Origin: an uncultured Kordiimonas sp.
GTDB lineage: Bacteria; Pseudomonadota; Alphaproteobacteria; Sphingomonadales; Kordiimonadaceae
Direction: 5' to 3'
Length of the DNA stretch: 64,000 bases
NCBI GenBank assembly: GCA_947503575.1
Contig: CANNDZ010000001.1
Span: forward strand, 1,302,001 to 1,366,000
Part shown: in pieces, positions 16,888 through 36,074 of the stretch
Layout: each line of letters begins with the position of its first letter
How positions within the stretch are numbered: the first letter of the stretch is position 1
The notes under the pieces: model-generated
What the model was told of the DNA's origin: nothing
What the model saw: the letters and a program-made list of their open reading frames with translations, nothing else
The model's database searches: none
Position numbers and translations under genes: made by a program

Positions 16888-16977
16888 GCGGTTCTCCCCA
16901 AAACACAGCGTTGATTACTTAACTTTATGGTCGGCTTCACAGCGCGCCTAAGACATAGATCAAGCCTCTCGTTTAAA

Positions 16978-16997
16978 ATGATATAACTCTATACCAT
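16978..16997. promoter_or_regulatory. 20-bp dyad, site 2 of 10
   Basis: ATGATATA-ACTC-TATACCAT, 12 of 16 arm positions agree with TTGTTATA-N4-TATAACAA. Lies in the divergent region between the amine oxidase and the VOC gene; its centre is 30 bases from the FNR-like dyad. Confidence 0.5.
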
Positions 16998-17010
16998 TTA
17001 TTGACCTCTA

Positions 17011-17999: not shown

Positions 18000-18887
18000 A
18001 TGGGATCAGCAAGCAAAACGGCAGAAATGGTGGCAGCAGTGCGCGCAGCCTATCATTATGGCCCTGAAGCAACTTTGTTTGACGACCCCTATGCTGTGCG
18101 CATGGTGGGCCTCTTTTATCGCCTGAAATGCAGCGTGCCGTTCCTGCGGCAGCGGTATATGCGGCAAGGCATGTTCAAGCATCTGAAGTCGTCGCTTAGT
18201 GTGCTATCTCGCGCGCGCTACTGTGAAGATCGGCTTGCCAAAAGTATAGCGGACGGCGTGTCGCAATATGTTTTGTTAGGAGCAGGCCTTGATACCTTTG
18301 CCCTACGCGCGGATACACAATTTACCGGTGTAACGGTGTTTGAAGTTGATACGCCGGACAGTCAGGCGGAAAAACGCAAGAAGGTTCAATCCTGTGGTCG
18401 CAAACCTTTTGTTGAGCATAGGTTTGTGCCTGTCGATTTTACGTGCGAGCAGGTTGAAGCAAAGTTGTTGGAGGCTGGGTTTGACCCGGACCAGAAAAGC
18501 TTTTTCAGTTGGCAGGGTGTTCTGATTTATCTGGATAAAGACACGATCTCGCGGTCGCTTAAAGGGTTGGCGACCATTTCTGCCGCAGGCAGTTTTTTGA
18601 TTGTGGACTTTATGGATGCTCGCCTGTTCGATGAAGGCTTTTTGCGCACCATCCCGGACACGGCGGCTGACTTGAAGCGTTTGATGGCCTATACCGCGGC
18701 GCGCGGGGAGCCCATTGTATCCGGGTTTCTACCAGATGAGTTTGCTGCGCTGGCCGCAACAGCAGGCTGGAACATGATACACACCATTTCGTCAAAAGAT
18801 CATGCTGCGCCTTATCTGGACGGGGAGCCAGATTATCGCTGGCCGACCGAGTATGATCATTTGGTAACCTTGCAGCGCGTGCAGTAA
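18000..18887 (+). CDS. SAM-dependent methyltransferase, LCMT/TIGR00027 type
   Basis: 295 residues. An N-terminal SKTAEMVAAVRA...FDDPYAVRMVG segment and YVLLGAGLDTFALR near residue 90-105 are typical of the leucine carboxyl methyltransferase-like family; EVDTPDSQAEKRKKV follows as the acidic loop binding SAM ribose. Such enzymes methylate carboxyl or hydroxyl groups of small molecules. It lies in the same operon as the VOC protein and in front of the TRAP transporter genes. Three short repeats begin at its stop codon. Confidence 0.87.
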   Translation: MGSASKTAEMVAAVRAAYHYGPEATLFDDPYAVRMVGLFYRLKCSVPFLRQRYMRQGMFKHLKSSLSVLSRARYCEDRLAKSIADGVSQYVLLGAGLDTFALRADTQFTGVTVFEVDTPDSQAEKRKKVQSCGRKPFVEHRFVPVDFTCEQVEAKLLEAGFDPDQKSFFSWQGVLIYLDKDTISRSLKGLATISAAGSFLIVDFMDARLFDEGFLRTIPDTAADLKRLMAYTAARGEPIVSGFLPDEFAALAATAGWNMIHTISSKDHAAPYLDGEPDYRWPTEYDHLVTLQRVQ

Positions 18888-18926: not shown

Positions 18927-18951
18927 GAACATAGTTTTGAAGGAATCAACA

Positions 18952-20019
18952 GTGTTCAAGTGGGGGAGCAGTTTTATTGCCGCAGTTTTGGCGATAGCCA
19001 TCGCGGCTATGCCAGCCAGCGCGCAATCGAAAGAACCCAGGGTTAAGGTCACGGTGGGGGCATTTGCGGCACCTGGTACGCCGTGGGACAAAGACTGGCA
19101 AACCTTCAGGCGCAATGCCGAAGGGCGGTCAAATGGCGATGTGGCCATTAAATTGCTGATCCGGGGTGAAACCGGCGGTGAACCTGTCACCATGAGCAAC
19201 ATTCGCCGTAACCGTTTGCAGTTTGGCGGCTTCACCATTGGTGGGGCCTCTGCCATCGTGCCCGAACTATCGGTGTTGCTCACGCCGTTTTTCTTCAAGG
19301 ACCGACAGGAACTTGATTATGTGATGGACGAACATCTGCTTGATGTGTTCCAGCCGCTGTTTGCCGAAAAAAATCTTGTTCTGATGCGTTGGGTGGATGT
19401 GGGCTGGCTGAATTTCTTTGGCAAAACACCCATCTTGAAACCGGAGGATGCTCAAGGCTATGCGCTGCGTTCACAAGCATCGGAAGCGTCACAGGTTCTG
19501 ATGAAATCGCTGGGCGGTGATATGATACAAATGCCGTTCCCCGACCTTATCCCGGCGTTGCAAACCGGCCTTGTGAAGGGCGGCGACACCAATATGGTGC
19601 TGTATGCTATTACGGGGCTGGGCAAAGAAGCTCCGCATCTGACACTCACGCGCCACGCATATGATACCGGCGTCGTTGTGGCCAATTATAAATGGTTCAG
19701 CGGCTTGAGCGAAACAGACCAGAGCCTGATCAACAATGCCTTCCCAACGTCTGCCGAAGCGCGTGCCGGTGTGCGGGCCATGACGCAATCTTTGGGCGGT
19801 ATGGTTCAGGCCGACCCGGATATCACGATCCACCAATTGTCTGATGCAGATCGTCAAGCCTGGGTGGAGGCAACGGCAGGCAATTCTGAGCGCATCATTG
19901 CCGCAGTGGGGGGGCAGTCTCAGATGATTTATGATGCCATGCTGCGGGGGCGTGCAGATTACCGCGCGCGGCTTGCTGCCGGGCAATTTGAAGCCACCGC
20001 TGCCGAGGGAGCAAATTGA
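18952..20019 (+). CDS. dctP: TRAP transporter substrate-binding protein DctP
   Basis: 355 residues from a GTG at 18952, chosen because GAAGGAA stands 6-7 bases before it; a TTG 15 bases upstream is less likely. Signal peptide to about residue 24 (PASAQ). The DctP fold is shown by GTPWDKDWQTFRRNAEGRSNGDVAIKLL and the W-V-D-V-G-W-L-N-F-F-G segment near residue 150. It delivers a carboxylate-type ligand to the DctQM channel. First of three overlapping genes. Confidence 0.92.
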   Translation: MFKWGSSFIAAVLAIAIAAMPASAQSKEPRVKVTVGAFAAPGTPWDKDWQTFRRNAEGRSNGDVAIKLLIRGETGGEPVTMSNIRRNRLQFGGFTIGGASAIVPELSVLLTPFFFKDRQELDYVMDEHLLDVFQPLFAEKNLVLMRWVDVGWLNFFGKTPILKPEDAQGYALRSQASEASQVLMKSLGGDMIQMPFPDLIPALQTGLVKGGDTNMVLYAITGLGKEAPHLTLTRHAYDTGVVVANYKWFSGLSETDQSLINNAFPTSAEARAGVRAMTQSLGGMVQADPDITIHQLSDADRQAWVEATAGNSERIIAAVGGQSQMIYDAMLRGRADYRARLAAGQFEATAAEGAN

Positions 20020-20576
20020 TGGAGTTTGCCCGCACTTTCTTGCGCGTTGTCTCTAAAGCAGAACGGGCAGTGACCCTGCTCGCGTTTGTTATTATGACAC
20101 TGGTCATTATCGCTGATGTATTCAGCCGCAAAATAACTGGCGTCGGGATTGCGGGTGCGCCGCGTATCGGCGTGTTTGCGATGATTGCAACGGCTTTTGT
20201 CAGCTTTGGTTTGGCGTCAGACGCGCGCCGTCATTTGCGGCCAAAGTTCGCGGATGGCTGGTTCCCCGAAAGCTGGAACGCCGCGATAACGTGTGCGCAG
20301 GAACTGCTTACCGCCGCCTTTTGCCTTGCCTTCGCGGTTGTGGGCGTTGGCGTGGTGATGGAAACCTATACGCTGGGGGAGACAACACGCATGCTGCGCA
20401 TCCCGGTGTGGCCCATGCAGGCGATCATTCCGCTGGTGTTTTTTATTGCCGCCATCCGCCACAGCATTTTTGGCCTTATTCCCGATTTGCGACCAAAACT
20501 TGAAGATGCTGCCAGTCTTGATGCCGTGCCAGCAAACCTGAAGGTGGAAACGGGTCAGGCGGGGGATAAAGCATGA
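20019..20576 (+). CDS. dctQ: TRAP transporter small permease DctQ
   Basis: 185 residues, start ATG overlapping the dctP stop by one base. Four predicted helices (about 15-35, 50-70, 90-112, 130-150), with the DctQ-type VIIADVFSRKITGVGIAGAPRIGVFAM. Forms the membrane partner of DctM. The stop overlaps the next start by four bases (ATGA). Confidence 0.92.
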   Translation: MEFARTFLRVVSKAERAVTLLAFVIMTLVIIADVFSRKITGVGIAGAPRIGVFAMIATAFVSFGLASDARRHLRPKFADGWFPESWNAAITCAQELLTAAFCLAFAVVGVGVVMETYTLGETTRMLRIPVWPMQAIIPLVFFIAAIRHSIFGLIPDLRPKLEDAASLDAVPANLKVETGQAGDKA

Positions 20577-21832
20577 GCGCTCTTCTCCTCTCGGGCTCGT
20601 TAATCGGGATGCTGCTCTTGCGCCAGCGCATTGTCATTATGCTGATGTTTGCCGCCGCCTTCAGTTATCTGGTGTGGGGCGATGGTCGGCTGGATTATGT
20701 CGTGCTGGATGCGTGGGCGGCAGCAGATCAGGAAGTGTTGCTGTCCATCCCGCTGTTTATCCTGGCGGGCAATATTATGTCGCGTGGGTCCATCGCGCGA
20801 AGGTTGATTGCCATCATGCGCGAAGCCATGAACCCCATCCCCGGCGGGTTGGCGATTGCCACTGTATTGTCCTGTGCGTTTTTTGCCGCCATTTCCGGGT
20901 CCAGCACAGTGACCCTGATTGCGGTTGGGTCTGTAATGTACCCGGCTTTGATTGAGGCGGGATATAGCAAAAAATTCGCGCTGGGGGCGCTCTGTGCGGC
21001 GGGCACGCTCGGTATCATTGTCCCGCCTTCGATCCCGCTTATCCTCTATGGTGTGATGACGGAAACGTCGATTGCGGATCTGTTTAAGGCCGGGATTGGC
21101 CCTGCCATCCTGTTGACCAGTATTTTCATTGCCTATTCCATGGTGGTGAACTGGTCCAAGGAACGCGCGCCCTTTGATGCGGGCGCGCTGTGGGGTGCGC
21201 TGAAAAACGGCATTTTTGCGCTCTTTATGCCTGTGGTTATTTTGGGCGGTATTTACGCCGGACTGTTTACAGCGACAGAGTCGGCGGCGGTGGCGGTGTT
21301 TTATGCTGTACTGGTGGAACTGTTTGTCCACCGGGACATGACGGTTGCAGAACTCAAAGACACATCGCTCGAAACCGCGACCATGATGGGCAGCCTGTTC
21401 CCGTTGCTGATGATGGCTCTGTCGATCAATACTTTTATGGCGTATGAGCAGATCCCCGCAGAACTGGTTGGCTGGATGACCGGCCTTGTCTCGGACCCTG
21501 TTTCCTTCCTGCTGATTACGATGGTGCTGTTGCTGGCGGTTGGCTGCTTTATGGACATCGGCTCAGCAATCCTGATTATCTCGCCGCTTCTTTTGCCGCT
21601 GGCGTTAAGCCAGGGCGTGGACCCGGTACATTTTGGTGTCATCATGATCACCAACCTTGAAATTGGGTATCTCACACCGCCGCTGGGCCTGAACCTGATT
21701 GTGGCGATGACCGCCTTCAAGGAAGATTTCTGGCTGATCGCCAAATCAGTGCTGCCGTTTTTGGTGTTGATGCTGATTGGCCTGCTGATCGTCACCTTCA
21801 CGCCGTCACTGTCGCTTTTCTTAGTTAAGTAG
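20573..21832 (+). CDS. dctM: TRAP transporter large permease DctM
   Basis: 419 residues, about 12 helices. Family signatures: SIPLFILAGNIMSRG near 60, FAAISGSSTVTLIAVGSVMYPALIEAGY near 105, GTLGIIVPPSIPLILYGV near 145 and GYLTPPLGLNLIV near 365. Sodium-driven import of a carboxylate brought by DctP. Followed after 9 bases by a flavoprotein gene, which suggests that the imported compound is its substrate or a downstream product. Confidence 0.94.
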   Translation: MSALLLSGSLIGMLLLRQRIVIMLMFAAAFSYLVWGDGRLDYVVLDAWAAADQEVLLSIPLFILAGNIMSRGSIARRLIAIMREAMNPIPGGLAIATVLSCAFFAAISGSSTVTLIAVGSVMYPALIEAGYSKKFALGALCAAGTLGIIVPPSIPLILYGVMTETSIADLFKAGIGPAILLTSIFIAYSMVVNWSKERAPFDAGALWGALKNGIFALFMPVVILGGIYAGLFTATESAAVAVFYAVLVELFVHRDMTVAELKDTSLETATMMGSLFPLLMMALSINTFMAYEQIPAELVGWMTGLVSDPVSFLLITMVLLLAVGCFMDIGSAILIISPLLLPLALSQGVDPVHFGVIMITNLEIGYLTPPLGLNLIVAMTAFKEDFWLIAKSVLPFLVLMLIGLLIVTFTPSLSLFLVK

Positions 21833-21841
21833 GACTGAACC

Positions 21842-23413
21842 ATGGACGCTTCCCTTAAAGACCGTTTGATCCAGATTTTGGGCGCAGACAATTTGCTGAT
21901 GAGTTCAGCAGATCGGGCGTTTTATTCGCAGGATGTCAGCAAGCGCGCCGAGTTCGTGACCAATGCCGTCATACGGCCTGGTAACACGGAAGAACTGGCT
22001 GCAGCTATTAAGGTTGTGGTGGAAGGCGGATACTGTGTTTTTCCGCGTGGTGGCGGCATGAGCTACACCAGCGGGTACCTGCCCAGCAACAATAAGGCGG
22101 TTACCATTGATATGGCACGCATGAACCGCGTGCTGGAGATCAACACCACCGACATGTATGTCACGGTAGAATCCGGGTGCCGCTGGGTGGATTTGCACGA
22201 AGCCTTAAAGGGCAAAGGCGTGCGGCCCCCGTTTTGGGGTACGCTGTCGGGCATTCGCGCCACCGTTGGCGGTAGCATGAGCCAAAACAGTATCTTTTTT
22301 GGCTCCGGTGTGCACGGCACAGCCGCCGACAGCGCCACCGGGTTCGAGATTGTGCTCGCCGATGGCAGCATCCTGAAAACCGGGGCGGGCGCGCAGGTGA
22401 ATGCCAGCCCATTCCAGCGCCATTATGGCCCGGACCTGACAGGCATTTTCACAGCGGATGCGGGCGCACTGGGCTTGAAGGCCACAGTGACCATGAAGCT
22501 GATCCGCGACCCGGCGCACAAGCGTTTTGCCTCCTTTGATTTTGCGGATTACCGCTCGCTTTTTGCGGCGGCAAGCGAAGTCTCCCGCCAGGGTTTGGCA
22601 ACCGAAAGCTTTGGCTTTGACCCGTATCTGCAAAGCCAGCGCATGAAACGCCAAAGCCTCGCCAGCGACGTGAAGTCACTGACTAATGTGATGAAATCCT
22701 CAGGTGGGGCGCTTAAGGCGCTCAAGGACGGCGCAAAGATCGCCCTGGCTGGCCGCAGTTTTATGGATGATGCCCAATACAGCTACCACTTTATGACTGA
22801 GGCGCACAGTGCAGCAGGCGCGGACGAAGCGCTAAAGGGCATAGAGAAAATCTGTTTGGAGGCGGGCGGTAAGCAGCTTGAAAACTCAATCCCGAAAATC
22901 ATCAGCGCCAACCCGTTCACGCCCCTGAATAATATGGTGGGCCCGGAAGGCGAACGCTGGTTGCCGGTGCATGGGCTGGTGCCACATTCCAAAGCGCCCG
23001 ACATGATGGCAGCCATCGAGCAATGCTTTGCTGACCACGGCGATGCGCTTGCTGAGCATGGTATCAACACTGGCTATCTGATCGCCACCGTTGGAGCCAG
23101 CACCTGTGTTCTGGAACCTGTGTTTTTCTGGCCTGATGAACGCATGGAAATTCAGGACGAGGTTGTCGAAGACAGCGCTAAGAAAAACTTCAAGGACTTT
23201 GGCGCCCGCCCTGAAGGCTTTGCTACCGTGATGAAAGTGCGCGCGGCGCTGAACGAGCTGTTTTTGGCACATGGTGCTGTTCATATGCAGATCGGCAAGG
23301 CGTATCCCTATCGGGATGGCCTCGAACCCGCGACCTATGCGGTGGTGGAAGGACTGAAAAAACAGCTCGACCCAACCGGTCAGATGAATCCGGGTGCTCT
23401 TGGTTTGGTATAG
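21842..23413 (+). CDS. FAD-linked oxidoreductase, VAO/4-cresol-dehydrogenase-like
   Basis: 523 residues. FAD-binding PP-loop region at about 55-85 (FPRGGGMSYTSGYLP), the second FAD motif RATVGGSMSQNSIFFGSGVHGTAADS at about 140-165, and a C-terminal oxidase domain ending QLDPTGQMNPGALGLV, as in glycolate/D-lactate dehydrogenases and vanillyl-alcohol-oxidase relatives. It would oxidise an alcohol, hydroxy acid or phenol. No signal peptide, so cytoplasmic. Same operon as the TRAP genes. Confidence 0.88.
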   Translation: MDASLKDRLIQILGADNLLMSSADRAFYSQDVSKRAEFVTNAVIRPGNTEELAAAIKVVVEGGYCVFPRGGGMSYTSGYLPSNNKAVTIDMARMNRVLEINTTDMYVTVESGCRWVDLHEALKGKGVRPPFWGTLSGIRATVGGSMSQNSIFFGSGVHGTAADSATGFEIVLADGSILKTGAGAQVNASPFQRHYGPDLTGIFTADAGALGLKATVTMKLIRDPAHKRFASFDFADYRSLFAAASEVSRQGLATESFGFDPYLQSQRMKRQSLASDVKSLTNVMKSSGGALKALKDGAKIALAGRSFMDDAQYSYHFMTEAHSAAGADEALKGIEKICLEAGGKQLENSIPKIISANPFTPLNNMVGPEGERWLPVHGLVPHSKAPDMMAAIEQCFADHGDALAEHGINTGYLIATVGASTCVLEPVFFWPDERMEIQDEVVEDSAKKNFKDFGARPEGFATVMKVRAALNELFLAHGAVHMQIGKAYPYRDGLEPATYAVVEGLKKQLDPTGQMNPGALGLV

Positions 23414-24630: not shown

Positions 24631-25653
24631 TCAGGCTAATTTAATGATGGTTTTGCCGAAGTTTTTGCCGTTCATCAGGCGGGCAAAGGCTTCTGGCGCG
24701 GCCTCTATGCCGGTGCTGACATCTTCCAGGAAATGCATCTTGCCCGCTGCGATCAGCTCAACAAATGTGCCGATCATATCATCCATCTGGTCCCAGAAGT
24801 CATACACAACAAGGCCGCGCACGGTTGCCCGCGCCCTAATGAACGCAGCAGGGTTAGGGCCGGTGATGGGCTCGCCGCTGTTGACCTGTGAAATCAGCCC
24901 GCACAGGATCACCCGGCCACCAACCGCAAGCCGCCACGCCGCTGCATCCAGTGTTTCGCCGCCAACATTGTCAAAGTAAATATCCACGCCGTTCGGGCAC
25001 AAGCGGTCAATGCCGTCCGCCACCAGTTCCTGCTTGTAGTTGATGCAGCCATCGAAACCGGCGGTTTGTGTAAGCCACTGGCATTTGTCCGCACTTCCTG
25101 CGATGCCAATGACCGTACAGCCAAGCGATTTGGCATACTGCCCCACCATGGAGCCAACGGCACCTGAGGCGGCGGACACAACAACCACGTCGCCTTCTTT
25201 GGGCTCGCCCAGATGTTTCAGGCCCGCGTAGGCCGTCAGCCCAGGCATGCCCAGCACACCCAGTGCAAGCGACGGCGGCGTGATACGCGCATCAAGCATG
25301 CGGGCGCCGTCCGGGCGCAATGGGTCCACTATGGGCGTGAGTGTGCTGTAGGTTTGCCAACCACCGGGCACAAGAATGCGGTCACCCGGCTTAAAGTCAG
25401 GGTGTTTGCTTTCTAACACCTCTGAAACCGTTTCGCCCTTAAGCACATCGCCGGGTGCAATGCTGCCGGACATATGCCGCCCGGCAATTTGACTACGCAT
25501 ATAAGGGTCAAGCGACAGATACAGATTTTTGCATAAAACCTCGCCGTCGCTTGGCGGCACCAGCGCCGTTTCCGCTACCACAAAATGATCAGCGCTCGGG
25601 ATACCGTCAGGCGTTGCCTTCAGGCGGACTTGCTGGTTCATCGGCTCGGTCAT
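24631..25653 (-). CDS. NADP-dependent MDR oxidoreductase (PTGR/2-alkenal reductase type)
   Basis: 340 residues of the zinc-free MDR family: SLDPYMRSQIAGR near 45, LGMPGLTAYAGLKHLGEPKEGDVVVVSAASGAVGSMVGQYAKSLG (nucleotide site near 130-175) and YFDNVGGETLDAA. Reduces the C=C bond of alpha,beta-unsaturated ketones or aldehydes with NADPH. Divergent from the nitrilase homologue; a 20-bp dyad lies 18 bases before its start. A second member of the family is at 37006. Confidence 0.9.
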   Translation of the reverse strand: MTEPMNQQVRLKATPDGIPSADHFVVAETALVPPSDGEVLCKNLYLSLDPYMRSQIAGRHMSGSIAPGDVLKGETVSEVLESKHPDFKPGDRILVPGGWQTYSTLTPIVDPLRPDGARMLDARITPPSLALGVLGMPGLTAYAGLKHLGEPKEGDVVVVSAASGAVGSMVGQYAKSLGCTVIGIAGSADKCQWLTQTAGFDGCINYKQELVADGIDRLCPNGVDIYFDNVGGETLDAAAWRLAVGGRVILCGLISQVNSGEPITGPNPAAFIRARATVRGLVVYDFWDQMDDMIGTFVELIAAGKMHFLEDVSTGIEAAPEAFARLMNGKNFGKTIIKLA

Positions 25654-25670
25654 GGCAGGCTCCGCTTTAA

Positions 25671-25690
25671 ATGCTATATCACTATATCAT
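25671..25690. promoter_or_regulatory. 20-bp dyad, site 3 of 10
   Basis: ATGCTATA-TCAC-TATATCAT, a nearly perfect inverted repeat; 12 of 16 arm positions agree with TTGTTATA-N4-TATAACAA. Between the MDR reductase and the nitrilase homologue; centre 29 bases from an FNR-like dyad. Confidence 0.55.
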
Positions 25691-25702
25691 TTTAAGTTAA
25701 TC

Positions 25703-25767: not shown

Positions 25768-26826
25768 ATGAGCGAACAGAAACTCTTGGGACCCAGCTTT
25801 TATGCGGCGGCCCTGCAAACAACATGTGATGCAGTAAACGGTCTGGCATCAAAGGATGAAGCCCGTGCCTCGATGATGCAAACCATCAAACGGCTTGCGG
25901 GTGAAATTCAGGCGACTAAACGCTTTGTCGGCCCCGACACCAAAATTATTGTACTGCCCGAATATGTGCTAACTGCCTATCCGCTGGGGGATACAGTACC
26001 CGGCTGGGCAGATAAAGCGGCCATTGATGTGGACGGGCCAGAGTATGAAGCTTTGGGCAAAATCGCGCAGGATAACGATATTTATCTGATGGGTAACGCC
26101 TATGAGCGGGACGCGCATTTCCCCAACCTGTATTTTCAGGCGTGCTTCATTATCGGCCCCAACGGCGACGTTGTGCTGCGTTACCGGCGGTTAAATTCCA
26201 TGTTTGCCCCAACACCCCATGATGTGTGGAACATGTATCTGGATATTTACGGCCTGGACGGGGTGTTTCCGGTTGCGAAAACCGACATTGGTAATCTGGC
26301 GGCAATTGCATCAGAGGAAATTCTGTACCCTGAGATTGCGCGGTCGCTGGCGCTGCGCGGTGCGGAGGTGTTTTTGCATGCCACGGGCGAAATGGGGTCT
26401 GTGTCTGACACGCCGAAAGCCATTGCGCGCAAGGCCCGGGCGCTGGAGAACCTGGCCTATGTCATATCCGCCAATGCGGGCGGTATTCGCGGGCACGAAC
26501 TGCCGTTTTCTGCCACCGACGGGCGGTCTTCAATCGTTGACTATAAGGGCATTGTGCAGGCGGAAAGCGGCTGGGGCCAGACCATGACAGCGCACGCCTG
26601 TATTGACCTTAATGCGCTCAGGAAACACCGCCGCCGCCCCGGCATGAGCAACATGCTGGCCCGGCAGCGGCTGGAGTTGTTCGCAGAAACCTATGCCACC
26701 CTGGGTACGCAGCCTGCCAATAGTTTGTTGGAGGCGGATGGCAGCGTCAAAACGCCTGACCGCGCGCATTTTATCGGTGCTCAGCAGGCATCAATTAAAA
26801 AAATGGATGAAGACGGCGTTATCTAA
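25768..26826 (+). CDS. Nitrilase-superfamily protein with altered triad
   Basis: 352 residues. The carbon-nitrogen hydrolase fold is clear: LPEYVLTAYPLG with the catalytic Glu at 65, the YRRLN motif at 139-143, and IASEEILYPEIARSLALRGAEVFLHATGE at about 180-205. In ordinary family members the second motif supplies Lys and the third supplies Cys (ICYDxRFPE). Here the equivalents are Arg141 and Ser182, read directly from the codons. The enzyme is therefore either a distinct subfamily with a different mechanism or inactive for amide hydrolysis. Its own promoter region carries the shared dyad, which argues it is functional. Confidence 0.85.
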   Translation: MSEQKLLGPSFYAAALQTTCDAVNGLASKDEARASMMQTIKRLAGEIQATKRFVGPDTKIIVLPEYVLTAYPLGDTVPGWADKAAIDVDGPEYEALGKIAQDNDIYLMGNAYERDAHFPNLYFQACFIIGPNGDVVLRYRRLNSMFAPTPHDVWNMYLDIYGLDGVFPVAKTDIGNLAAIASEEILYPEIARSLALRGAEVFLHATGEMGSVSDTPKAIARKARALENLAYVISANAGGIRGHELPFSATDGRSSIVDYKGIVQAESGWGQTMTAHACIDLNALRKHRRRPGMSNMLARQRLELFAETYATLGTQPANSLLEADGSVKTPDRAHFIGAQQASIKKMDEDGVI

Positions 26827-29267: not shown

Positions 29268-30707
29268 TTAATCAAGGTTGGCGTTGGCTTCATCAAACAC
29301 AGTGATGGGGGCGACCTCTGCTGTGTTCACCATCATAGATTGGCGGCGGAAAAAGCGCAGGAAGCCGGAGCGTCCCATGCGCGATGCCCCCATGCCCGAC
29401 AGCTTGAACGAGTTTTTTTCGGCTTCATGCATCATGCCGGTCAAGGAGCCATCATTGATGCTGATGCCGCCAGCCTCTATTTGGCGGCCAACAGCAATGG
29501 CTTCTTCGGCAGTTGCGGCATATACCGCACCGCTCAGGCCGTAGTCGCTGTCGTTTGCCATGGCAATGGCTTCATCAACCGTGTCAAACGGGATAACAGG
29601 TAAAAGCGGGCCGAATGTTTCCTCGGTCATTATTTTCATGTCAGGTGTCAGACCGGTTATCACCGTGGGGCGGCACCAGTTGCCGCCGTGCTTTTCAATT
29701 TTACCGCCTGTGTGAATGGTTGCCCCTTTTGAGCGCGCATCTGCAATCTGGCCCTCGATGATGCTGGCCTGTTTGTCAAAGATGATCGGCCCAATGTGCC
29801 CGGAATGGATATTGGGCGCGTTGATGGTGACCTCACCAGCTTTCGCGACCAGTTTCTCCAGAAAGTCATCAAAAATCGGGCGGGCAACATAAATGCGCTC
29901 TATCGACTGGCAGGCCTGGCCGGTGTTCAGCACCGATGCCCGCAGCAGCGATGTGCTGGCGCGGTCCACGTCTGCGCTTTCAAGCACAATCGCGGGGTCC
30001 TTGCCGCCAAGTTCAAGGCACGAGGGGATGAAGTTGCGCGCCGCTTGCTCGCCGACCTTCCGGCCCGTTGCCACGCTGCCGGTAAAACACACCATGTCCA
30101 CGTTATCAACCAGTGCAGCGCCGGTTGTCCCATCACCGTCGACGATAGCGAGCACATCCTTAAGCCCGTCAATGCCGGCAATGACGTCGCGCACGGGCGC
30201 TGCAAACCTGGGGGTTACTTCGCTGGGTTTGATGATAACGGCTGCGCCGGCCATCAGGGCGGGCAGGGCGTCTATGAACGACAGCGTCAGCGGGAAATTC
30301 CACGGGCTTATAACACCCACCAGCTTGTAAGGCCGGTAGCCCACCGAATATTCGATAAACGGCATTGCGCCTGCGCGGCCCGTGTCGTCGGTTAATTCGC
30401 TGGCGGCTTTCACCCATCGCTCGATTGCGCCGGGGATGCCATCTATTTCCATGGCAGAGATATAGCTGCGGCCTGTGTCATCCGTAAGCGCAGACAGAAT
30501 GTCTGCCTTGTTTGCGACGATGGCTTTTCCAAATGCCCGCAAAATATCTGCGCGGCCTTCAAACCCCTTGGCTTCCCAGGCCGGTTGCGCGGCCCGCAAA
30601 CCTTTGCAGGTGGCAGCCACATCGACCGGGCTTACGGGGTCAATCGTATAGTCTATTTCACCGCTGTGGGGGTTTCTGACCGGTAAACTCTTATCAGGCA
30701 GGCTCAT
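29268..30707 (-). CDS. NAD(P)-dependent aldehyde dehydrogenase
   Basis: 479 residues, usual length. Active-site residues present: Asn137 in ISPWNFPL, Glu232 in LELGGKDP, Cys266 in NTGQACQSIE; FTGSVATGRK is the coenzyme loop. Oxidises an aldehyde to the acid in the cytoplasm. It is downstream of a DUF1330 gene in a two-gene operon whose upstream region has the shared 20-bp dyad and a perfect FNR box. Confidence 0.94.
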   Translation of the reverse strand: MSLPDKSLPVRNPHSGEIDYTIDPVSPVDVAATCKGLRAAQPAWEAKGFEGRADILRAFGKAIVANKADILSALTDDTGRSYISAMEIDGIPGAIERWVKAASELTDDTGRAGAMPFIEYSVGYRPYKLVGVISPWNFPLTLSFIDALPALMAGAAVIIKPSEVTPRFAAPVRDVIAGIDGLKDVLAIVDGDGTTGAALVDNVDMVCFTGSVATGRKVGEQAARNFIPSCLELGGKDPAIVLESADVDRASTSLLRASVLNTGQACQSIERIYVARPIFDDFLEKLVAKAGEVTINAPNIHSGHIGPIIFDKQASIIEGQIADARSKGATIHTGGKIEKHGGNWCRPTVITGLTPDMKIMTEETFGPLLPVIPFDTVDEAIAMANDSDYGLSGAVYAATAEEAIAVGRQIEAGGISINDGSLTGMMHEAEKNSFKLSGMGASRMGRSGFLRFFRRQSMMVNTAEVAPITVFDEANANLD

Positions 30708-30740: not shown

Positions 30741-31037
30741 CTAGTCCAGCGCTTCAACAAGGCGCACCCGGACAGTTGAATTGCCTTCCCGCAGCTTCTT
30801 TGCCTCGGCGTATTCTGGTGAATGCCAGAAGGTTTTTGCAGCCTCAAACGAAGGCCATTTTGATATAACAACTTTGGTCTCGTCAGGCCAGTCCCCTTCC
30901 AGACATTCGCTGACCCGCGCACCGCGCGCGACATACTCTCCGCCAAACTGTGTTACCAGTTCGGCTGCGCGCTCGCCGTATGCCCTAAAGCTTTGCATAT
31001 CTTGAATTTCTGCGAGTATGATCATGTAGGCTGCCAT
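30741..31037 (-). CDS. DUF1330 family protein
   Basis: 98 residues from the ATG at 31037, which has AAGGAG nine bases before it. A ferredoxin-like alpha/beta barrel of the DUF1330 family: AYMIILAEIQDMQSFRAYGERAAELVTQFGGEYVARG and VVISKWPSFEAAKTFWHSPEYAEAKKLREG. The family has no firm function but is often beside catabolic dehydrogenases. First gene of the ALDH operon. Confidence 0.87.
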   Translation of the reverse strand: MAAYMIILAEIQDMQSFRAYGERAAELVTQFGGEYVARGARVSECLEGDWPDETKVVISKWPSFEAAKTFWHSPEYAEAKKLREGNSTVRVRLVEALD

Positions 31038-31125
31038 GCTGGTTAACTCCTTCTGGGTGCCCTGCAACAGGGCGTGCTACAAGGGTGTTACTGTCTTTGG
31101 GTGATGATTTGCCAGCACCTTCGAA

Positions 31126-31145
31126 ATGATATATCAATATATCTG
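31126..31145. promoter_or_regulatory. 20-bp dyad, site 4 of 10
   Basis: ATGATATA-TCAA-TATATCTG with the perfect core GATATAT-CA-ATATATC. Arm agreement with the TTGTTATA form is 11 of 16. Between the DUF1330/ALDH operon and the GntR gene; centre 34 bases from the FNR box. Confidence 0.5.
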
Positions 31146-31162
31146 GCTTGATCACAGGGGCG

Positions 31163-31176: not shown

Positions 31177-31262
31177 TGGTTTGAAACAGGGTGCTTTGCC
31201 GCCATTTTTGTGACTGGGAACGTCAAAATTGTGGCTCAAGGGCAGGAAGCTCAGGGGATAAA

Positions 31263-32075
31263 ATGAGTAAAAACAGAAATGGCGGCGTTGTGTTTTCCGC
31301 AACTGAACGGGTAAACGAAAACCTGCCAACACCCTTGTATCACCAGATATATGTGCTGCTTCGTGAAAAAGTCGTGTCGGGTGATTACCCCGAAGGCACG
31401 CTTATCCCCAGCGAGCATGAACTGGAAAAGATTTTCAACGTGTCCCGGATTACGGCCAAGCGCGCGCTAGATGAACTGGCGGCGGATGGTTTGGTGGCGC
31501 GTCAGCGCGGGCGCGGGACGGTGGTTACCTTTTCAGCGCCGGTACCCTCAAAAAGCGCTGAGTCCATGGATGGTTTGATGGAAAACCTGTTGACCATTGT
31601 GTTGGAAACCCAGGTAACAATCCACGAGTTTGACTATGTTGCCGCCCCTCCACGAGCGGCCGATGCGCTTGAGGTCGCGCCGGGCACTAAAGTCCAGCGG
31701 GCAATCCGGGTGCGTCACAAGGACGACACGCCATTTTCGTATGTTGAGACATACGTGCCCGAGGAAATAGGTCGATCTTTCAAACGCGAGGAAATGGAAA
31801 ACCAGCCATTGTTGGCTTTGCTGGAACGGGCGGGGGTGAATATTTCCCGCGCGCGTCAGTCTATGACCGCAACGCTTGCAGATGGCAAAACAGCATCCAT
31901 GTTAAGCGTCAATGTGGGTAGCCCGCTTTTGAAAGTGACGCGCGTTGTGTTTGACAGCGACGACCGGCCCGTAGAGTTTATTACCGTCTTATACCGGCCT
32001 GACCTGTACCAGATGAACATGACCCTTTCCCGCGTTGAAGGGGAAGAGTCGAACTTCTGGAAAACTGAACATTGA
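31263..32075 (+). CDS. GntR-family regulator, HutC/UTRA type
   Basis: 270 residues from the ATG at 31263 (GGGGATAAA before it). N-terminal winged helix (about 25-95: LYHQIYVLLREKVVSGDYPEGTLIPSEHELEKIFNVSRITAKRALDELAADGLVARQRGRGTVV) and a C-terminal UTRA ligand domain (about 115-260). HutC-type regulators sense small organic ligands, often pathway intermediates. It is the only one-component catabolic regulator in the window and has a shared dyad in its own upstream region, so it is one candidate for the protein binding the dyads, though the dyad does not look like a typical GntR operator. Confidence 0.9.
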   Translation: MSKNRNGGVVFSATERVNENLPTPLYHQIYVLLREKVVSGDYPEGTLIPSEHELEKIFNVSRITAKRALDELAADGLVARQRGRGTVVTFSAPVPSKSAESMDGLMENLLTIVLETQVTIHEFDYVAAPPRAADALEVAPGTKVQRAIRVRHKDDTPFSYVETYVPEEIGRSFKREEMENQPLLALLERAGVNISRARQSMTATLADGKTASMLSVNVGSPLLKVTRVVFDSDDRPVEFITVLYRPDLYQMNMTLSRVEGEESNFWKTEH

Positions 32076-33359: not shown

Positions 33360-35786
33360 TTAAAACGAGTAGTTAAAGCGGATGCCAAACTGCGTTTTGC
33401 GGCGGAAGGCAACATGGATGCTTTCCCGCGTGAAGTCGAAGAAGTTTGCACCAAAGGGCGGCGCCAGGCGGACATCTGCGCTGGTGTCGGCAATATTGTT
33501 GGCCGATGTTGGCGCATTTTCACCAAGCAGGTTGGTAATAAACGCTTCAACAGACACATCGTCTACCCGGAAACCGGTCCGGATGTTTACATCCAGCGCT
33601 GTTTGTGTTTCCGCGAGGTTGGTGTTGCTGTCAAAGAAACTGCCTGTAAAGAAAGTGTCCAGACGGGTGAACCAGACCGGATCATCCATGCCCATAAACT
33701 TGCCTTGAATTGGCTTTTCGTATGTCAGGTTTGCAGACCACGCCCACTTGGGGAAGCGAGGCGCGCGCTGGCCTTCCACATTGGCATCAGGACCAAACAC
33801 GTCGTTAAAGTCACCCGCGCCGCCATCTTCAGGGAAGCTCGCGATCTTGGCGTCAATATATGATACAGACCCCTGGAACGTCAGCTCTTCGCTAAGGTTA
33901 ACGGTGGTGTCCAGCTCAAAACCATAAATGTTGGTTGTGGCCCCATTGCCAGTAAAGGCAACTGTACGAACCGGGTTTGGCGCTGTTGGATCGGTTTCGG
34001 CAATGAAGTCGAAGCCAGAGAAGATCTGATCACTGCGTTTCATGTAGAACGCCGCCAGGTTCATAACGCCGCGCTTGTCGTTGAAATACTGTTTCCAACC
34101 GATCTCGAAGTTTTCCAGTTTTTCTTCATCAAACGTTGTGCTGATGCCGGGGTTCCGCTGCCTCAACTCTGCCAGTTGTTGTGCATCCAATTCTGCCACC
34201 TCGGCATTAAAACCACCTGGCAGGTTACCAACGCTATAGTTGGCATACAGGGTTGTTTCGTCGTTTGGCGTATAGTTCAAAACAACTTTTGGCAGGAATG
34301 TATTGAACGAGGCATTCCCGTTTGCAACAGCGGCATTTGAAATTTGGTCATTCTGGTACCGGCCTTCAAAAATGATCTCAAGATCATCATTGATCTGGTA
34401 ATCAAGAATGGCGAACACGCCTTTGGTTTCTGCGCCTGTTGCGTTTGCCGGGGCAATCACACCCGCGAACCAGAAATCCAGCAGGCCATCATAAAAGCCA
34501 CCGGTGGTCAGGATGTCGATATCCAGATAGTTACCACCAACTGTCCAGGTCAGCCTGTCATTCAGCGCTGTACCAGAAAGACGGGTTTCTATGCTTATAT
34601 CTTCCAGTTCCTGGGCGCCAGAGGTATTGAAGCCATAGGTGCCTGTGCTGTCAAAGTCACCGAAGAACAAATATTCTTCTTTATTATAGCCAAACAGCAC
34701 ATCCAGCGACATGCCATTGTCAAAATCGTAACTTGAATCGAGGCTACCCCGGAAGGCTTCGCGTTTCAGGCCAAAGCCGTCAAGATCATTGAGCGTCAGA
34801 CCCAGCGATGTGGCCTCTCCAAGGTTGGCAAGAGCCGCCAGAGCAAGGTTAAAGTCTTCCCGTGTCGTGTTGGCACCAAGTTCATCTTCTGTCGGAATTC
34901 GCAGCGTTCCCTGGAATGCGGTTTCTGTTGTGCCACCACCATCAAGCGGGAAGCCGCCAAAATTATGCTCTGCAAGGCCACCAATGCGCGCCACAGCGGC
35001 TGGGCCATCATCATCTTCATAATACAGGCCGCGTGCCTTGATACGGAAATTGTCATTGGGCTTAAACAGCAGCGTACCTGCAATAGACCATGTGCTTTCC
35101 CGGCCCAGTTCCTGGCTAGTATCGTTGGAATTGCGGTAATGCCCACCAACATAATCATAACTGGCGTTTATCCGGCCTGTCAGATTGTCGGTGATCGCGC
35201 CTTCCATGCCAAACTGGCCCCGGTATTCGTCGCGTGTCGCGGCAACGCCGGTCATGTTGAAGGCCAGCTCCTCGCCTGGGTCTTTAGTAATATAGTTGAT
35301 CGCACCGGCAAACGTGTTCCGGCCAAATAGCGCCGATTGCGGCCCTTTGATAATCTCTACGCGTTCCAGTTCCTGAACGCCGATACCCTGAATGCCGCCA
35401 GACACATAAATGCCATCAATAAAAATGGCCGCTGTCCGTAACAATGGGTCACTGTTGTCAACGGTAATACCACGGAAACGAGGCGATGTTGCTATCCGCG
35501 CATTCCGGTCATTAAACCCCTCGATGAACAGGCCCGGGGTTGCCCGCGCAACGTCCAGAATGTTGTTAAAGCCCGCATCAAACAATTGCTGGTTGCTGAA
35601 AGCAGAAATTGCAATTGGCGTATCTTGCAGGCTTTGTTCGCGCTTGCGCGCTGTAATCGTGATTTCGTCAATGGCAAAACCGTCGTCAGCGGCAGCATCC
35701 TGTGCTGTCACCGCTGTTGAAATACTTGGGACCGCAAGCACCATGCTCATCGCTGCAGACGCCAAGAGTTTCTGTTTGTGGATCAT
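33360..35786 (-). CDS. TonB-dependent outer-membrane receptor
   Basis: 808 residues. Signal peptide to about residue 28 (STAVTAQ), TonB-box-like IDEITITARKREQSLQDTPIAI, plug motif ERVEIIKGPQSALFGRNTFAGAINYITKDPGE near 130-160, and a barrel ending FGIRFNYSF. Same receptor group as the one at 4841-7387 but with a clearly different barrel, so probably a different ligand. A 20-bp dyad lies 121 bases before the start. Confidence 0.93.
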   Translation of the reverse strand: MIHKQKLLASAAMSMVLAVPSISTAVTAQDAAADDGFAIDEITITARKREQSLQDTPIAISAFSNQQLFDAGFNNILDVARATPGLFIEGFNDRNARIATSPRFRGITVDNSDPLLRTAAIFIDGIYVSGGIQGIGVQELERVEIIKGPQSALFGRNTFAGAINYITKDPGEELAFNMTGVAATRDEYRGQFGMEGAITDNLTGRINASYDYVGGHYRNSNDTSQELGRESTWSIAGTLLFKPNDNFRIKARGLYYEDDDGPAAVARIGGLAEHNFGGFPLDGGGTTETAFQGTLRIPTEDELGANTTREDFNLALAALANLGEATSLGLTLNDLDGFGLKREAFRGSLDSSYDFDNGMSLDVLFGYNKEEYLFFGDFDSTGTYGFNTSGAQELEDISIETRLSGTALNDRLTWTVGGNYLDIDILTTGGFYDGLLDFWFAGVIAPANATGAETKGVFAILDYQINDDLEIIFEGRYQNDQISNAAVANGNASFNTFLPKVVLNYTPNDETTLYANYSVGNLPGGFNAEVAELDAQQLAELRQRNPGISTTFDEEKLENFEIGWKQYFNDKRGVMNLAAFYMKRSDQIFSGFDFIAETDPTAPNPVRTVAFTGNGATTNIYGFELDTTVNLSEELTFQGSVSYIDAKIASFPEDGGAGDFNDVFGPDANVEGQRAPRFPKWAWSANLTYEKPIQGKFMGMDDPVWFTRLDTFFTGSFFDSNTNLAETQTALDVNIRTGFRVDDVSVEAFITNLLGENAPTSANNIADTSADVRLAPPFGANFFDFTRESIHVAFRRKTQFGIRFNYSF

Positions 35787-35906
35787 GTCCTTCCCCTCCG
35801 TTAAGGAACTGTCGATACGAATACTCCCCGGCCGAATGTTTTAAGGCACTTTTGCGCAATAAGATTGCGCACACGCCGACATTTCAGCACTAATTAATTT
35901 GTACTA

Positions 35907-35926
35907 TTGATATAATACTATGTCAA
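35907..35926. promoter_or_regulatory. 20-bp dyad, site 5 of 10
   Basis: TTGATATA-ATAC-TATGTCAA, 13 of 16 arm positions agree with TTGTTATA-N4-TATAACAA. Upstream of the second TonB receptor. Confidence 0.5.
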
Positions 35927-36074
35927 TTAAAACGCCCCAAATTCCTGCGGCTGATGCGCTGTCGCCGGATGCTGTGATGAAAAAAGCACATGGAGCCTAT
36001 GCATTGGGTGTAAATCATTGTGCATCAATGGCTTTGCACCAGCGTTGGCAGGGCCGTTTGCCTGCGTCTGGCCG

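Follow-up and report, generated by a model that had tools for sequence, protein, structure and literature searches.

The nitrilase superfamily is defined by a Glu-Lys-Cys catalytic site, and annotation pipelines label proteins such as the one described here nitrilase-related carbon-nitrogen hydrolases. Its aliphatic amidase/formamidase branch is represented by the solved structures 2uxy, 2plq, 5g3o and 2e2k. Serine has been placed at the nucleophile position of this fold in the mutants HpAmiF C166S, MtCPA C158S and human beta-ureidopropionase C233S. The last of these is inactive (PMC10741476), and the reactivity of MtCPA C158S is strongly diminished (PMC4812014). In the beta-ureidopropionase work, a second active-site acid is counted as a member of the catalytic tetrad (PMC10741476).

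Here we describe a natural nitrilase homologue in which the Lys and Cys positions are occupied by Arg and Ser (Glu-Arg-Ser, hereafter E-R-S). It lies in a 64,000-nucleotide stretch of Kordiimonas DNA, which was analysed as a whole and is called the window below. An initial sequence-only reading of the window had proposed that an intact gene with a plain nitrilase-family fold encodes an E-R-S triad (Arg141; Ser182, codon TCA), that the gene has a shared regulatory module, and that a new activity is possible.

A nitrilase-fold protein with Glu-Arg-Ser at the catalytic positions

The gene is a single intact reading frame, and its features are as follows.

25768-26826, plus strand: E-R-S nitrilase homologue, 352 aa, with a PF00795 match and an AlphaFold2 model
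25960-25962, plus strand: Glu65 codon, catalytic base/acid position (LPEY), invariant in 91/91 clade proteins
26188-26190, plus strand: Arg141 codon (CGG), Lys position of the solved formamidases and aliphatic amidases, by alignment, 91/91
26221-26223, plus strand: Asp152 codon (TPHDVW), second active-site acid position by alignment, invariant in 91/91
26311-26313, plus strand: Ser182 codon (TCA), Cys nucleophile position by the same alignment as Arg141, 91/91

A Pfam profile search matched residues 23-288 of the protein to PF00795 (CN_hydrolase) with 98.3 bits (cut-off 23.2), and the nearest solved proteins by sequence were formamidases and aliphatic amidases. The AlphaFold2 model, built on 51 clade sequences, had a pLDDT of 93.5 and a pTM of 0.92. 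The best solved match to the model was the aliphatic amidase 2uxy (VIA Z 32.1, rmsd 2.7 over 291 residues; Foldseek E 1e-21), and formamidases were also among the best solved matches. The family fold that had been read from the sequence is borne out by the profile match and by the model, in which the protein has the predicted alpha-beta-beta-alpha fold of the nitrilases. The scores against the NCBIfam equivalogs were 74.3 bits for formamidase (NF009803, cut-off 406) and 60 bits for aliphatic amidase (NF009802, cut-off 427).

Alignment with the solved formamidases and aliphatic amidases confirmed the proposed triad: the catalytic Glu is present as Glu65, the Lys is replaced by Arg141 and the Cys nucleophile by Ser182, and the Ser of the Helicobacter pylori formamidase C166S mutant structure falls on Ser182. 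In the same alignment Asp152 stands opposite the second Glu and is read as the kept second active-site acid of the superfamily. The E-R-S proteins have in common with the aliphatic amidase/formamidase branch the fold, the catalytic Glu, a second acid (Asp in E-R-S) and the PEY and PE..R motifs, but differ from it in that every member has Arg for Lys and Ser for Cys, identity is only about 20%, and they have invariant residues of their own. They resemble the engineered mutants in having Ser at the nucleophile place of the same fold; however, those mutants keep the Lys, whereas in the E-R-S clade Arg and Ser occur together and are fixed by selection. By fold and profile the protein is a member of the nitrilase superfamily, but it lacks two of the defining catalytic residues.

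The E-R-S proteins form one conserved clade across phyla

Scanning a single genome for each species yielded at least 561 relatives; 80 of these were retained. Glu65, Arg141 and Ser182 were invariant in 84/84 clade proteins and, in a later set, in 91/91; Asp152, Glu183 and Glu184 were likewise invariant in the 91. Since one scan pattern included the Ser itself, pattern-free whole-protein searches were also run, and all of the 14 members that they returned were E-R-S (14/14). Six codons are used at Arg141 and five at Ser182 across the clade, indicating that the residues are kept, not the DNA. Many Nostoc sequences are near copies of one another, and 54 representatives remain below 88% identity. 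In score against the window protein the clade is set apart by a wide gap (members at least 337 bits, next relatives at most 147 bits).

Members were found in eight phyla: Pseudomonadota, Cyanobacteriota, Acidobacteriota, Bacteroidota, Bacillota, Chloroflexota, Actinomycetota (Nonomuraea) and that of one MAG named Kapaibacterium. Prevalence was patchy. The gene was present in 7/29 Kordiimonadaceae genomes, in 9/146 cyanobacterial genomes and in 3/398 Pseudomonadota genomes (the window's own included; two further matches fell outside the clade). The count was 4/247 in the Acidobacteriota sample, 4/321 in the gammaproteobacterial class sample and 1/251 in the Chloroflexota sample, each including the genome around which the sample was drawn. 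Viral contigs gave 44 pattern matches, none of them a relative.

About 21 positions are fixed in the clade and nearly absent from its Glu-Lys-Cys and Glu-Lys-Ala relatives. These include Y66, S144, E183, I185, E208 and K217, which the alignment places in or beside the active-site motifs.

The sequence-only reading had named two findings that would speak against it, a conserved Cys brought into the pocket from another part of the chain and a change confined to this strain with signs of decay. Neither was found. The most conserved Cys column in the 91 proteins was C20 (56/91, 62%), so a replacement Cys from elsewhere in the chain was rejected. Between close Kordiimonas relatives dN was 0.05-0.08 against a synonymous proportion of 0.67-0.77, which is near saturation; these values point to strong purifying selection on the intact gene and, together with the 91/91 conservation across phyla, led us to reject strain-specific decay. 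Since both objections failed, the suggestion that a new activity is possible is a reasonable one. Two findings go beyond that suggestion: the retention of both acids, Glu65 and Asp152, and the constant partnership of the gene with an aldehyde dehydrogenase.

No description of the E-R-S clade or of the Glu-Lys-Ala clade was found in the open-licence papers searched. As far as these papers show, the cross-phylum group had previously gone unremarked. Its members always have Arg and Ser for the usual Lys and Cys and are co-inherited with a dedicated aldehyde dehydrogenase, so that their chemistry is probably one that has yet to be assigned.

Loss of the catalytic Cys in neighbouring lineages

The Glu-Lys-Cys and Glu-Lys-Ala relatives (L016, L018, L019, L169 and others, with an [ST]PHD motif) have the PxD motif in common with the E-R-S proteins at about 30-37% identity. 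They differ in that the Lys is kept and the Cys is either kept or replaced by Ala, and they occupy separate clades in the tree. For this tree the three triad columns were removed, 21 E-R-S rows were sampled and a quick method was used. The E-R-S rows formed one clade with a support of 100 on a long stem (0.81 changes per column). The Glu-Lys-Ala rows formed a second clade (support 97) among the Glu-Lys-Cys relatives. Several outgroup branches are long, so that the deep order is uncertain, while the two clades are well supported.

The Glu-Lys-Ala clade comprises L018, L019, L111, L116 and L169-L182 (Haladaptatus, Tsukamurella, Chloroflexota) and carries the motif MANEGSYPE/LAIEGAYPE. On these sequences it lost the catalytic Cys independently, and since this second, separate clade also lacks the Cys, loss of this residue appears as a recurrent event in this branch of the nitrilase fold, which makes it a testable evolutionary question.

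Other unusual sites were seen in the alignment. Two proteins from Novosphingobium plasmids (L110, L117) have Gln-Lys-Gly at the triad, in which the Lys alone is unchanged, and single odd triad rows are also present. In Chloroflexota, L186 and L187 have tandem nitrilase domains, an intact Glu-Lys-Cys domain followed by one without its Glu and Cys. The window's own genome encodes a further CN_hydrolase-like protein (L007, G000:C1:161340-162065) that seemingly lacks the Cys; it reads Glu-Lys-Val in an uncertain alignment and sits on a very long branch.

An aldehyde dehydrogenase is the most constant neighbour

The neighbourhood of the gene in the window contains the following features.

16976-16999: second exact operator-like copy, upstream of the VOC, methyltransferase, TRAP and FAD-oxidase genes; conserved in L020-L022
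17083-17994, plus strand: VOC/glyoxalase-fold protein
18000-18887, plus strand: LCM-type methyltransferase
18937-21832, plus strand: TRAP transporter (Pfam confirms DctP; the two membrane subunits, small and large, are predicted)
21842-23413, plus strand: FAD-linked oxidase (PF01565/PF02913), in the same 7/29 genomes
24631-25653, minus strand: NADPH-dependent alkenal/'curcumin reductase'-like protein, divergent from the E-R-S gene
25669-25692: 24-bp palindrome resembling an operator, in the divergent promoter region ahead of the E-R-S gene
29268-30707, minus strand: aldehyde dehydrogenase (PF00171), the constant partner; closest solved chain 4h7n
30741-31067, minus strand: DUF1330 protein
31124-31147: 4-mismatch operator-like copy, with the DUF1330/aldehyde dehydrogenase genes on one side and the GntR gene on the other
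31191-32075, plus strand: GntR/UTRA regulator; the start may be ATG 31263

Over 82 loci, the most constant neighbour of the E-R-S gene was the aldehyde dehydrogenase. A member of the same subfamily was encoded no more than 10 kb away in 42/82 loci, and in 30/82 it stood immediately downstream, with a median gap of about 70 bases; four overlapping pairs were counted by hand, and L024 and L082, which have a different aldehyde dehydrogenase, were excluded. In 18 of the 24 genomes whose locus has no nearby copy, the subfamily is encoded elsewhere. Among the Kordiimonadaceae, the genomes that encode the aldehyde dehydrogenase are exactly the seven with an E-R-S gene, and the same holds for the FAD-linked oxidase; the 22 others have neither (0/22). 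For each gene such a coincidence would arise by chance once in about 1.6 million draws, a figure that is inflated by relatedness. The window aldehyde dehydrogenase scored 529 bits against 4h7n, which we take to be from Anabaena variabilis, and 217 bits against the second-best solved chain; its closeness to a solved structure makes this partner a handle for finding the pathway.

A candidate operator and regulon

The 24-bp palindrome AAATGnTATAnnnnTATAnCATTT occurs exactly at 25669-25692 and again at 16976-16999 in a scan of the window, where 0.02 matches with at most 3 mismatches are expected by chance. The site beside the E-R-S gene is exact in L020 and L022 and has one mismatch in L021 and L027. 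The three Kordiimonas relatives L020-L022 have the palindrome at matching places and, in addition, one 4-mismatch copy each in the distal flank, which resembles the window's copy beside the GntR gene. The shared regulatory module that had been proposed is real. The GntR/UTRA protein probably reads the palindrome. Since the palindrome copies are shared and are conserved in relatives, one GntR-type regulon probably takes in the E-R-S gene and the FAD oxidase gene, and probably also that of the aldehyde dehydrogenase. A further, weak copy with 4 mismatches (35905-35928) lies upstream of a TonB-receptor-like gene (33360-35786, minus strand), which may join the regulon.

Proposed function of the E-R-S protein

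The conservation and the neighbourhood suggest that the E-R-S protein is most likely a functional enzyme that has been re-tooled and belongs to a catabolic pathway involving an aldehyde. Some kind of catalysis is favoured because every member retains both acids, which canonical members require for catalysis, and because the pocket motifs have gained invariant residues of their own. As the best explanation we tentatively put forward a neofunctionalised nitrilase-fold clade with predicted Ser182-based catalysis, placed in a GntR-controlled catabolic cassette.

In this proposal, Glu65, Arg141, Asp152 and Ser182 would form the active-site quartet. Ser182, at the nucleophile elbow, would have Glu65, aided by Asp152, as its general base, and Arg141 would hold the charge and the oxyanion or, alternatively, an anionic group of the substrate. 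The intermediate would be an oxyester, not a thioester, and would then be hydrolysed. As substrate we would expect an ester, a lactone, a thioester or an activated amide, and no nitrile. The dedicated aldehyde dehydrogenase would act before or after the E-R-S enzyme, and a GntR-type repressor would control the cassette. The role of Ser182 as the nucleophile is the preferred, unproven mechanism; a serine oxyester is the simplest proposal because a fixed Ser stands at the nucleophile elbow beside a fixed Glu base. The losses caused by engineered Cys-to-Ser changes in canonical members count against reading the protein as a Ser182 hydrolase, and the Ala or Gly found for Cys in neighbouring lineages suggests that this protein may do without a nucleophile.

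The protein might instead be a non-covalent enzyme (hydratase, lyase, isomerase or decarboxylase), in which Glu65 and Asp152 would serve in acid-base catalysis, Arg141 would anchor a carboxylate, and Ser182 and Glu183 would only hold substrate or water. The invariance of both acids agrees with this, as do the typical use of Arg as a carboxylate anchor, the P-x-D motif retained by nearby lineages with Ala or Gly for Cys, and the aldehyde dehydrogenase and FAD-oxidase neighbours, which suit carbon catabolism, not nitrogen release. However, Ser182 is never Ala, Gly or Thr in the 91 proteins, and we know of no lyase or isomerase in the nitrilase fold; we regard this alternative as rather unlikely. 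It is also doubtful that the protein is a pseudoenzyme, that is, a non-catalytic carrier, sensor or scaffold with a small ligand or the aldehyde dehydrogenase as its binding partner. Although the C-to-S and K-to-R changes both strike catalytic residues, the partner is constant, and the domain fusions of L186 and L187 imply that inactive partners exist nearby, a scaffold need not retain Glu65 and Asp152 in every sequence, and many clade-specific invariant residues fall, as judged by sequence motif, in the active site. An ordinary amidase or nitrilase that tolerates both changes would match in fold and length (aliphatic amidase and formamidase) but is very improbable, since Cys-to-Ser mutation leaves known members with little or no activity and the NCBIfam scores are far under the cut-offs, and the E-R-S proteins form a separate clade on a long stem.

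A wider reading would be that a large, widespread branch of the nitrilase fold has abandoned thiol catalysis and that in this clade a Glu-Arg-Asp-Ser site, perhaps joined by the clade-specific Glu183 and Lys217, catalyses a reaction not seen before in the superfamily, as part of an aldehyde-linked catabolism common to heterotrophs and cyanobacteria; we hold this to be quite possible, if short of probable. With the fold and both acids kept and Arg and Ser fixed, the clade would represent either a second chemistry in this fold or a stable binding role.

Other neighbours of the E-R-S gene

Further recurrent neighbours were the alkenal reductase, the VOC protein, CaiB, DUF1838, DUF3598 and DUF4437; the CaiB, SAM methyltransferase and VOC clusters are broad families, so that their counts are weak evidence. 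Over the 82 loci the neighbours do not converge on one substrate. A carbamoylase role, considered from hydantoinase-like and HyuA-like neighbours, was not relied on, since these occur in just 12 and 8 loci; the name HyuA was given from sequence, not from a profile. In the Acidobacteriota L061, L072 and L096, a HyuA/oxoprolinase-like gene of about 690 aa immediately precedes the E-R-S gene; a search of these three genomes for the usual aldehyde dehydrogenase subfamily did not find it. In the Nostocales L055, L058, L063-L067, L073, L081, L086, L088 and L093, the genes for the E-R-S protein and the aldehyde dehydrogenase have an RCC-reductase-like gene (PF06405) upstream or close by.
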